From Sporosarcina sp. Te-1 (lineage in GTDB: Bacteria; Bacillota; Bacilli; Bacillales_A; Planococcaceae), in contig NZ_CP071798.1 of NCBI RefSeq assembly GCF_017498505.1, forward strand, positions 434,001-498,000: a stretch of DNA of 64,000 bases. Reading direction: 5' to 3'. Below, in pieces: positions 5,640-48,758 of this stretch. A program made the position numbers and the translations under genes. Each line of letters starts with the position of its first letter. The stretch's first letter is position 1. Under the pieces are notes generated by a model that saw nothing but the letters and a program-made list of their open reading frames with translations, searched no databases and had not been told where the DNA came from.

Positions 5640-6827
5640 ATGGATAAAAAAGAGCGAGCTGGAGAGATGGAAAACGATATGACGTTGGATGAAGTGAAAG
5701 CAAGTTTATTGGAAACAGGCAAGAAGAATGGTGAATTGACGTTAGAGGAAGTAACGGATAAACTGTCCGTCTTCGAAATGGAACCGGATCAGTTTGAGGA
5801 ATTTCTTGATCAGATCGAAGCCCAGGGCATTGAGATGGACCGGAAAGACGATGAGGAAGAAGAAGCGGTAAAACCGGTCGCGGACGATGAACAGTTCGAC
5901 TTAAACGATTTAAGCGTACCGCCCGGCGTTAAAATCAACGATCCTGTCCGCATGTATTTGAAAGAGATCGGTCGTGTCGATCTTTTGACAGGCAACGAAG
6001 AGGTCAAATTAGCTGTCGCCATTCAGGAAGGTGTAGAAGCGGAGGAAAAGCTCGCTTCGATGGACCATCCGGATCCGGAATTGCAGGAGCTGGTAGAAAA
6101 AGGCGAGAACGCGAAAAAGAAACTGGCTGAAGCCAACTTGCGACTTGTTGTCAGTATAGCAAAACGCTATGTAGGACGCGGCATGCTGTTCCTCGATTTG
6201 ATTCAGGAAGGCAATATGGGTCTGATCAAAGCGGTAGAGAAGTTCGACCATACAAAGGGATTCAAATTCAGTACGTATGCCACTTGGTGGATTCGTCAGG
6301 CAATCACACGCGCAATTGCCGATCAGGCGCGTACCATTCGTATTCCGGTCCACATGGTTGAAACGATCAATAAGTTAATTCGCGTTCAACGTCAACTGTT
6401 GCAAGACCTGGGACGTGAACCATCACCGGAGGAAATTGGCGAAGAGATGGATCTGTCCGCCGACAAAGTCCGTGAAATCTTAAAAATCGCTCAAGAACCG
6501 GTGTCGCTTGAAACGCCGATTGGGGAAGAAGATGACTCCCACCTCGGTGATTTCATCGAAGATTCCGAAGCCCAGTCTCCATCGGATCACGCGGCTTATG
6601 AGCTGTTGAAGGAGCAATTGGAAGATGTTTTGGATACGCTGACCGATAGAGAGGAGAATGTCCTCCGCCTCCGCTTCGGATTGGATGATGGTCGGACTCG
6701 TACATTGGAAGAGGTCGGTAAAGTCTTTGGCGTGACACGGGAACGGATCCGCCAAATTGAAGCGAAAGCATTACGGAAGCTGCGTCACCCATCTAGAAGT
6801 AAACGTCTGAAAGATTTTCTAGAATAA
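5640..6827 (+). CDS. rpoD: RNA polymerase primary sigma factor SigA
   Basis: Housekeeping sigma factor, 395 aa. An acidic region 1.1 occupies about 1-85. Region 1.2 starts near [12 protein letters not shown]. Region 2 contains [20 protein letters not shown] and the -10 melting helix with [10 protein letters not shown]. Region 4.2 ends in the helix-turn-helix [18 protein letters not shown]. The ATG at 5640 sits 10 bases after AGGAGG. It is cotranscribed with dnaG and followed by the structured element at 6884-7038. Confidence 0.97.
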
Positions 6828-6883: not shown

Positions 6884-7038
6884 CACTGTCCTCCCAGAAT
6901 GGACAGTGTGGAGAATCGCTAGAAAAGGCGAAACGCTAGCAGGCGTAGCTTGAGCGGCGCAATGATGGTGGGGAACCCCCCAGCCATTCCATAGGCCGTA
7001 GCTGACTCCTGCAGCAAGCGGCCTTTCTGGCGTTTTTT
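6884..7038 (+). ncRNA. Long structured element ending in a T run, downstream of rpoD
   Basis: A perfect 8-bp hairpin CACTGTCC/GGACAGTG (6884-6891 with 6901-6908) is followed by one elongated fold. Its closing stem joins CGCTAGAAAAGGC (6917-6929) to GCCTTTCTGGCG (7021-7032). Inside are GCAGG/CCTGC (6939-6943 with 7008-7012), AGCT/AGCT, GCGGC/GCCGT (6954-6958 with 6995-6999) and TGG-TGGGG/CCCCA-CCA (6966-6986). Six T residues at 7033-7038 follow the closing stem on the plus strand only. It could be a small RNA, an elaborate rpoD terminator, or a REP/bcr-like repeat, since GACTCCTGC resembles such elements in Bacillaceae. It is the only content of this 300-base gap. Confidence 0.5.
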
Positions 7039-7124
7039 CGTCCTCTTTTTTTACAATCGATAGAGAGAAACATGTCCCACCTTGTAGAATACTAGTGTTA
7101 GCCTGATCGGAAGGGGGAGTGGGA

Positions 7125-7682
7125 ATGAATGCACAACGGAAGCGGATCATCATTACGGAGATTCAATATTGGAAGCAAAATAAGCTGTTGCCGGAGCATT
7201 ATTGTGATTTCCTCATTACGTTATATGCACGCGGAGAGGAAGATGGCACGGAAGAGATGAAAGGCTCTAAAGGAATCTTGGAGCATGAAAAGAAAACTAG
7301 AGTGGGAAGAGTGATCGCCATCAGCCTTCTAACGATTCTGGTTTTCGGAGGAATGTTCCTTCTGAAGAACTATTCAGTCTGGCCCATGTCGGCTGCAGCT
7401 GTTTTGGCAACAATCCTGCTGATCATTTCACTTGGCAAGTCTCGGGTTTCCTCAAATTTTACATCGCTGTTATACATATTGTCGGCTTTTTTGTTACTTG
7501 GCCTGTCACTAAAAGTTTGGATGATCTTTTTTGAAACTGAAACGATGTTGCTGATAGGATTGCTCGTGTTGAATTGTGTACTCTGGTTATTTGCTGGCAG
7601 ATTGCTAAAATTACTATATTTTACGATTTCCGGGTCAGTCGGATTGCTTCTCATTATCGGCTTCCTGTTCCTTTCCATGTGA
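7125..7682 (+). CDS. Membrane protein of unknown function downstream of sigA
   Basis: A 185 aa protein. The N-terminal 55 residues are soluble and carry EIQYWKQNKLLPEHYCDFL, a segment of the kind conserved in uncharacterised Bacillales membrane proteins. Five hydrophobic segments follow (about 62-80, 84-101, 109-128, 134-151 and 160-183). The start ATG at 7125 follows AAGGGGGAGTGGGA. Not assigned to a named family with certainty. No partner gene suggests a role. Confidence 0.75.
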   Translation: MNAQRKRIIITEIQYWKQNKLLPEHYCDFLITLYARGEEDGTEEMKGSKGILEHEKKTRVGRVIAISLLTILVFGGMFLLKNYSVWPMSAAAVLATILLIISLGKSRVSSNFTSLLYILSAFLLLGLSLKVWMIFFETETMLLIGLLVLNCVLWLFAGRLLKLLYFTISGSVGLLLIIGFLFLSM

Positions 7683-37173: not shown

Positions 37174-37245
37174 ATAAGGCAATAGGGTACTGATTCGTCG
37201 GAATCTTACACATTTTTCGCAAGCAATCGAATATCGCGGATGATT

Positions 37246-37442
37246 GAGCGGGGAGAGCACGCATTAGGCGTCGCCGAAGGAGCAAGTAACGAGGTTATGA
37301 ATCTCTCAGGTAACAAGACCCGTTCATGACGCATCTCTGGAGAGCGCCGATTTAAACGGCCACCAACGAGGAAAGCCGCAAGGTCAAACTTTCAGGTACA
37401 CGGACAGAGGTTCCTTTATATAGGGGACTTCTGTCTTTTTTT
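37246..37442 (+). promoter_or_regulatory. Tandem glycine riboswitch with terminator
   Basis: Aptamer 1 (about 37246-37345) has GAGCGGGGAGAGC, GTCGCCGAAGGAGCAAG, CTCTCAGGTAACAAGACCCG and CATCTCTGGAGAGC. Aptamer 2 (about 37346-37410) has GCCACCAACGAGGAAAGCC and TTTCAGGTACACGGACAGAGG. These are the conserved blocks of gcvT-type riboswitches. The terminator GACAGAGGTTCC/GGGGACTTCTGTC (37403-37435) shares its 5' arm with aptamer 2 and ends in seven T residues. Glycine binding should prevent termination and turn on glycine cleavage. Confidence 0.95.
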
Positions 37443-45982: not shown

Positions 45983-46025
45983 AAAAGCATACACCAGGTA
46001 GCTACAGCTTTGAAATAAAGTTTGA

Positions 46026-46073
46026 TAAAAAAACAACCTTTTCGGTATGATAGCCGTAAGAGGTTGTTTTTTT
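46026..46073 (+). terminator. Terminator after nrdJ
   Basis: AAAAAACAACCT/AGGTTGTTTTTTT with an inner TTTCGG/CCGTAAG stem. The 300 bases that follow up to the phosphoesterase are AT-rich. Confidence 0.85.
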
Positions 46074-47271: not shown

Positions 47272-47319
47272 TTTCTTTGTAAAGTTGTCCAATACGATAC
47301 AAAGAAAGCATCTTTTTTT
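47272..47319 (+). terminator. Weak terminator-like hairpin after the phosphoesterase, containing the right direct repeat
   Basis: TTTCTTTGTA (47272-47281) pairs perfectly with TACAAAGAAA (47298-47307), and a T7 run follows at 47313. The loop contains the second AAGTTGTCCAAT (47282-47293). Confidence 0.5.
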
Positions 47320-47340
47320 ATCAAAGTTTATTTTATAGCT

Positions 47341-47378
47341 ACAGGTAGAGGAAAACGAACGGTTTCTCTACCTGTTTT
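47341..47378 (+). terminator. Hairpin ACAGGTAGAG...CTCTACCTGT with T run
   Basis: ACAGGTAGAG-G-AAA pairs with TTTCTCTACCTGT (one bulge), followed by TTTTC. A second, stronger stop signal for plus-strand transcripts of the accessory segment. Confidence 0.65.
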
Positions 47379-47734: not shown

Positions 47735-47778
47735 CAAAAAAACTGTAGGCTCCTTTTCAGGTATGCCTACAGTTTTTT
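47735..47778 (-). terminator. Terminator of yqhQ
   Basis: ACTGTAGGC (47742-47750) pairs with GCCTACAGT (47765-47773); A residues on the left give a T run on the minus strand, and T residues on the right allow plus-strand use. Confidence 0.9.
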
Positions 47779-48758
47779 CAATTTGCTTGAATGGTAGAAG
47801 AATGATCATCCGCAATAGTCTCGACAACTTCAACATTTTCGATGCCGTGCTCTTCAATTTCGAGCAACCGGTTGAAGGAGGCAATTGCCACTTCTACTTG
47901 ATCGTCATCGGGTTCTTTTGTTGTGAGCAATTGAAGCCATAACCCGGGGTATCCTAAGTATTTTAAGACCGGGATATTACGTAATGAGTTGGTGAATTGC
48001 AAGACTTCAAACGACACGCCAAGTACGACAGGGATTAAGAGAATCCGATTGACAATCCGCAGCCAGAACGGGTCGGTCGGAACGAGGAAATAGATGAACA
48101 TCCCTACGATGACGGTAAAAAGCAAGAAGCTGCTGCCGCATCGGTAATGGAGACGGGATTGCGCCTGTACGTTTTCAACCGTTAATGGAAGTCCGTTTTC
48201 GTAAGCATTGATGACTTTGTGCTCCGCCCCATGGTATTTGAAAACCCGTTTAATGAGCGGTGTCATAGAAATCAACGACACATACCCGAGAAGCAGGATT
48301 AACTTGAAGAAACTCTCCAACAATATTTGCGCGGTCTTGCCCGGAGCGAGAGATTCGAACAATTGCGCCAGAAAGACCGGGACAAGAGTGAAAGCGAATT
48401 TACCAAATAGAAAGGACAATACACCAACAGCGGCAACCCCAAGGATCATTGCCAGTTTGGACGATTCCTCCGGTGCTTGTTCAACTTCCTCGCCAGGCAT
48501 GACATCATATCGTTCGCTGGCAAAGGTCAAATGTCTCGAACCAATCCCGGCAGATTCAATCAATGCGACAATTCCACGGAGGAAAGGGATCTTTTTCAAT
48601 TTTTGTGCAAGTGGCTTTTGTTTTTTGGGCAGATAGAAATAATCGAGGGAACTATCTTTCCTGCGAATTGCGGTAACAGTATGATCCCGGCTGCCGAACA
48701 TGACACCCTCTATCAAGGCTTGACCTCCGTACGCAGGCGCTGCTTGCTTTTTGCTCAT
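47778..48758 (-). CDS. yqhQ: DUF1385 family membrane protein YqhQ
   Basis: A 326 aa protein with the family hallmark YGGQALIEGVMF near the N-terminus, several membrane segments (about 100-125, 148-168, 210-230 and 240-262) and the conserved FKYHGAEHKVINAYE and RLHYRCGSSF motifs with possible metal-binding histidine and cysteine. Function is not established. The ATG at 48758 was chosen over a GTG at 48770, which abuts the AAGGTG site. Confidence 0.88.
   Translation of the reverse strand: MSKKQAAPAYGGQALIEGVMFGSRDHTVTAIRRKDSSLDYFYLPKKQKPLAQKLKKIPFLRGIVALIESAGIGSRHLTFASERYDVMPGEEVEQAPEESSKLAMILGVAAVGVLSFLFGKFAFTLVPVFLAQLFESLAPGKTAQILLESFFKLILLLGYVSLISMTPLIKRVFKYHGAEHKVINAYENGLPLTVENVQAQSRLHYRCGSSFLLFTVIVGMFIYFLVPTDPFWLRIVNRILLIPVVLGVSFEVLQFTNSLRNIPVLKYLGYPGLWLQLLTTKEPDDDQVEVAIASFNRLLEIEEHGIENVEVVETIADDHSSTIQAN

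Follow-up and report, generated by a model that had tools for sequence, protein, structure and literature searches.

Genomic location and predicted fold

The window that was analysed here is a stretch of 64,000 nucleotides from the genome of Sporosarcina sp. Te-1 (G000 in the comparisons below). It contains an rpoD gene, identified by a match to the NCBIfam RpoD equivalog (E 7e-196), with dnaG located directly upstream. An element at 6884-7038 is found between rpoD and a gene for a protein of 187 aa; it begins 56 nt 3' of the rpoD stop codon, and all three lie on the plus strand (Table 1). The 187 aa protein has no match in Pfam or NCBIfam, and its gene is present directly behind rpoD in most of the congeners examined.

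The structure behind rpoD is a real and strongly structured element: positions 6884-7038, folded as RNA, have a minimum free energy of -75.2 kcal/mol (shuffle mean -50.8, sd 4.4, z -5.55), and this stability was reached by none of 200 dinucleotide shuffles. The 8-bp hairpin, the long bulged closing stem, the several inner stems and the T6 tract reported in the preliminary description of this DNA are all present. The 155 bases that were treated there as one unit consist of a conserved unit, which covers only about 6909-7038, and a 5' hairpin, which is a separate piece.

Table 1. Positions of the features discussed, numbered within the window
Feature	Position	Strand	Basis
rpoD, gene whose transcript would be terminated	5640..6827	+	ORF; NCBIfam RpoD
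8-bp hairpin CACTGTCC...GGACAGTG, no T tail, outside the repeat	6884..6908	+	fold; G000 and G177 only
Putative member of the dispersed palindromic repeat family, diverged; probable terminator of the rpoD operon	6909..7038	+	covariance model R2, nhmmer, orthologs in three species
Closing stem, 5' arm (GAGAATCGCTAGAAAAGGC)	6911..6929	+	fold; kept in four species
28-nt segment inside the stem, in-register homology with the canonical repeat	6930..6957	+	18/28 identical
Second stem, 5' arm (GCT-A-GCAGG), pairs with 7008-7015	6935..6943	+	fold
Second stem, 3' arm (CCTGCAGC)	7008..7015	+	fold; consensus
Closing stem, 3' arm (GCCTTTCTGGCGTTTT), overlaps the T tract	7021..7036	+	fold; consensus pairs
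T6 tract behind the stem	7033..7038	+	sequence; T5-T6 in four of four orthologs
Weak promoter-like site 3' of the element, perhaps serving the 187 aa gene	7061..7090	+	consensus match 9/12 only
Next gene, 187 aa, family unassigned	7119..7682	+	ORF; no Pfam/NCBIfam match

The Rfam comparison proposed in the preliminary description gave no match for the element, at the gathering (curated) thresholds or at relaxed ones. A search for tRNA and tmRNA genes was likewise negative, plasmids and phages contained no match for the element, and a direct search for repeats in the window found none that involve it. Elsewhere in the window, Rfam recognises a glycine riboswitch aptamer (RF00504, 65.7 bits) at 37240-37331 on the plus strand. 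The longest inverted pair of the window consists of two 43-nt arms (45999-46041 and 47305-47347, 79% complementary, 1,263 nt apart), which possibly delimit an insertion.

Orthologs of the element behind rpoD

Our blastn searches of 261 genomes of the family have identified convincing homologs of the element in three other species only (viz. G177, G208, and G169), the homolog in G177 being 77% identical over the full length. All three are located directly behind rpoD in the same polarity as in G000. Their RpoD proteins share 98% identity with the RpoD of the window, a value that does not exceed 92.7% in the next congeners read. Several weak matches (L005, L006, and L133-L135) resemble chance or coding sequence and were dropped. 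Of the three other species only G177 keeps a 5' hairpin corresponding to 6884-6908. The closing stem is nearly invariant, with 12 of its 14 consensus pairs identical in all four orthologs, and the GC and GCAG pairs of the second stem are also kept in all of them. The sequence boxes that adjoin the closing stem are nearly invariant as well, while the flanks and the middle of the element diverge, the middle being its least conserved part.

These observations bear on the possibility, raised in the preliminary description, that the element is a small RNA. Such an RNA would be stable, about 125 nt long, cut from the 3' end of the rpoD transcript or made from its own promoter, and would act in trans, with termination as a secondary role. 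The very stable fold and the conservation in four species of the boxes beside the closing stem, and not just of pairing, are consistent with this reading. We nevertheless consider it quite unlikely, as no Rfam family matches the element, no promoter-like site was found on the plus strand in the gap that separates rpoD from the element, the conserved positions lie mainly at the stem with the middle least conserved, and the element occurs in four species only. That the element is instead a cis-regulatory leader (an attenuator) of the 187 aa gene is suggested by the tandem orientation and by a T tract that ends about 80 nt before this gene. This seems extremely improbable, since the same gene follows a plain short terminator in most congeners, no conserved aptamer-like core is seen, the middle being least conserved, and a weak promoter-like site follows the element at 7061-7090.

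A dispersed palindromic repeat family and its relation to the element

Although blastn of the element against its own 4.3-Mb genome found a single copy, a covariance model built from the four rpoD-linked orthologs (R1) has matches in 11 other genomes of the family beyond the orthologs (best E 1e-11 to 3e-5, at most 10 per genome), nearly all of them in one shared polarity; a search at the level of the order covered the same 261 genomes and added nothing. The matches are mostly palindromes of 118-134 nt with the arrangement GAAAATCG-stem-AGGCGACACTCCTGCGGGA...GCCCGCGGAAAGGGAGCC-stem-CGATTTTC. The canonical repeat is symmetric (GAAAATCG...CGATTTTC, of the form GAAAATCGCCAGAAAAGGCGACACTCCTGCGGGAA.AGCGTTAGCCGAAGACCCC...GAGGAGGCTAAGGCAACGCCCGCGGAAAGGGAGCCGTTCTGGCGATTTTC), and its closing stem occurs in several variants (viz. 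CCAGAA/TTCTGG, TTGAAA/TTTCAA, and TTCAGGA/TCCTGAA). An alignment of 16 copies contains 12 pairs with two-sided changes, and 44 such cells in total against a shuffle mean of 14.5, a value that none of 500 shuffles reached; the signal is lost when the structure is slid along the alignment. This covariation of stem pairs across copies indicates that base pairing of the stem is maintained in the repeats.

A blastn search with a canonical copy found the core of the repeat in most congeners and at 15 places in G000. A second covariance model built from dispersed copies only (R2) has 18 matches in G000, on both strands, which include the rpoD element and about 17 others. The preliminary description had held that dozens of randomly oriented copies would speak against its structured RNA, which applies here only in part: the exact sequence is single copy, whereas the family recognised by R2 is dispersed on both strands. 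In view of both models, the single-copy blastn result no longer suggests a unique RNA.

Most copies in G000 are nearly identical to each other, also in their flanks, with such near-identical copies and identical flanks present at about ten loci. The copy that was examined is located just upstream of an IS1182-type transposase gene (L215, G000:C1:3894725-3900852). The identity of copies and flanks, together with the neighbouring transposase gene, indicates that a repeat copy has probably hitch-hiked with an insertion sequence. The core of the repeat alone is also found in five Bacillales plasmids. Direct repeats at the edges of the repeat exceed a shuffled control, but one TATTTAT-like sequence recurs in them at many loci, and they are hence part of the element; a target-site duplication of the kind expected for a MITE is thus unsupported. 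In one locus (L143, 1551-1617, minus strand), a Bacillaceae-1 RNA (RF01690, 73.5 bits) lies inside the loop region of a canonical copy, an instance of one dispersed element nested in another. At several loci in G208, G177, and G169 (L221, L222, and L224-L227), two copies whose closing stems differ lie about 100 nt from each other in inverted orientation, and together they make up a composite unit of about 350 nt.

The relation of the rpoD element to this family was also examined in the reverse direction. A sequence-only HMM built from 17 dispersed copies identifies the rpoD element by nhmmer as the best match in the window, with 25.5 bits (E 4.6e-7) against 4.8 bits for the second-best match there, and all four orthologs score with this HMM. 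Using R2, the match in the window covers 6906-7040 (31.4 bits, E 8.2e-6), and the three other orthologs score 39-41 bits (E < 2e-8), so that the element is significantly matched by a model that contains dispersed copies only. However, a plain hairpin at 47736-47782 reaches 20 bits with R2, which indicates that a generic stem accounts for part of the score of the element. The 28 nt inside the stem were for this reason compared separately and without gaps. In G000, 18 of the 28 positions are identical to the repeat, which ranks first among the 127,946 positions that the two strands of the window offer and was equalled by 3 of 20,000 shuffles; the corresponding numbers of shuffles as high are 8, 0, and 0 of 20,000 for G177, G208, and G169. 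The interior beyond these 28 nt has diverged from the repeat beyond recognition, and an HMM of the interior alone gives low scores (1 bit in G000, 7 bits in G208).

An alternative is that an oversized rpoD terminator was born in place, and that its likeness to the repeat consists only of G+C-rich stems ending in AATCG/CGATT. The weak interior-only scores and the bits that generic hairpins obtain with R2 would fit this alternative. We regard it as unlikely, in view of the in-register interior match being the best in the window, the single polarity of almost all R1 matches and the scores of all four orthologs with the sequence-only HMM. On the evidence of sequence comparison, the rpoD element is best explained as a fixed, diverged member of the dispersed palindromic repeat family.

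The preliminary description had likened the element to REP and bcr repeats, and the part of this suggestion that stands is the dispersed palindromic repeat. REP elements (GTAG and CGTC superfamilies) are extragenic palindromes that measure 20-40 bp, carry an unpaired tag (GTAG or CGTC) and prefer tandem and convergent gene gaps (PMC3733652). The canonical repeats are similarly palindromic and extragenic and have a similar preference, but they are 118-134 nt long, and the ends of the 16 aligned copies are without an unpaired GTAG or CGTC tag. The bcr1-bcr18 repeats of the Bacillus cereus group, as described in a citing article (Kristoffersen et al., 2011, cited in PMC3446304), are also structured intergenic repeats of similar size in Bacillales, a likeness at the level of general description. 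About half of them are reported there to be present in transcripts, often in UTRs, so that it would be nothing unusual for a repeat to be transcribed within a 3' UTR. The Bacillaceae-1 RNA is likewise a dispersed structured element of the same genomes, but the window element does not match RF01690. No description of the repeat was found in the literature by searching its exact repeat words and keywords, a result that does not prove that none exists. This covarying family, common in Planococcaceae and without a match in Rfam, can seed false small-RNA calls when a single genome is read.

Probable termination of the dnaG-rpoD transcript by the element

In all 27 of the other congeners that were read, rpoD is followed within 10 nt of its stop codon by the onset of a short hairpin, mostly GCATCGGC...GCCGATGC, and then a T-run. 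No short hairpin terminator was found within 110 nt of the rpoD stop codon in G000, G208, and G169, and G177 has a weak hairpin-T site near the stop codon (GCAGTGG-CAT-CCATTGC-TTTTT). All four element-bearing species have a G+C-rich stem followed directly by T5-T6 on the rpoD strand. The element shares this arrangement, and its place at the 3' end of an operon, with intrinsic (Rho-independent) terminators, from which it differs in its length of about 125 nt and its branched or bulged interior in place of a short simple hairpin. The suggestion that the structure terminates the dnaG-rpoD transcript is supported by these observations, and the terminator and repeat ideas of the preliminary description, which had stood beside that of a small RNA, can be joined into one explanation.

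The T-run that canonical copies carry on the opposite strand is intact in two of the four orthologs and, as read from the alignment, broken in G000 (CGATTCTC) and G208 (CGATTATC). The neighbouring genes could be called for 37 canonical copies, of which 17 occupy convergent, 18 tandem, and 2 divergent gene gaps. As a genome contains convergent and divergent gaps in roughly equal numbers, the ratio of 17:2 corresponds to a binomial p (two-sided) of about 7e-4, to be read with the heuristic ORF calls and the non-independence of paralogous copies in mind. The canonical repeats may accordingly act as two-way terminators, of which the rpoD copy would have kept one direction, although the bias could instead reflect avoidance of promoters.

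We therefore favour, as the probable explanation, a vertically inherited, diverged repeat copy that was taken over as the rpoD terminator. The repeat would have entered the region downstream of rpoD in a common ancestor of the four species and would have been inherited vertically since. In the rpoD transcript, its arms would form a long stem with a U tract behind it, and these most likely end the dnaG-rpoD transcript, the repeat taking the place of the short terminator of relatives. This explanation draws together the fold, the homology to the repeat, the location that the four species have in common, and the finding that a simple terminator is missing or weak at this location. The little interior likeness to the repeat, the share of the generic stem in the R2 score, the weak hairpin-T site of G177 and the avoidance of promoters as an alternative were counted against this explanation. 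It appears very unlikely that the repeat behind rpoD also gives rise to a stable 3'-end small RNA, specific to this clade, which tunes the expression of the sigma factor or of other genes.

Elements of this kind are known; the interest of this one lies in its location and its apparent takeover. If the explanation is correct, an essential sigma-factor operon has had its terminator replaced by a scattered bacterial palindrome, which has since been retained for its stem and U tract. In another genome (L100, G183), the gap between rpoD and the 187 aa gene contains a different palindromic repeat (GTGGAAGCAGGCGTCTAGCCTCGACAGGC...), which lies behind the short rpoD terminator.
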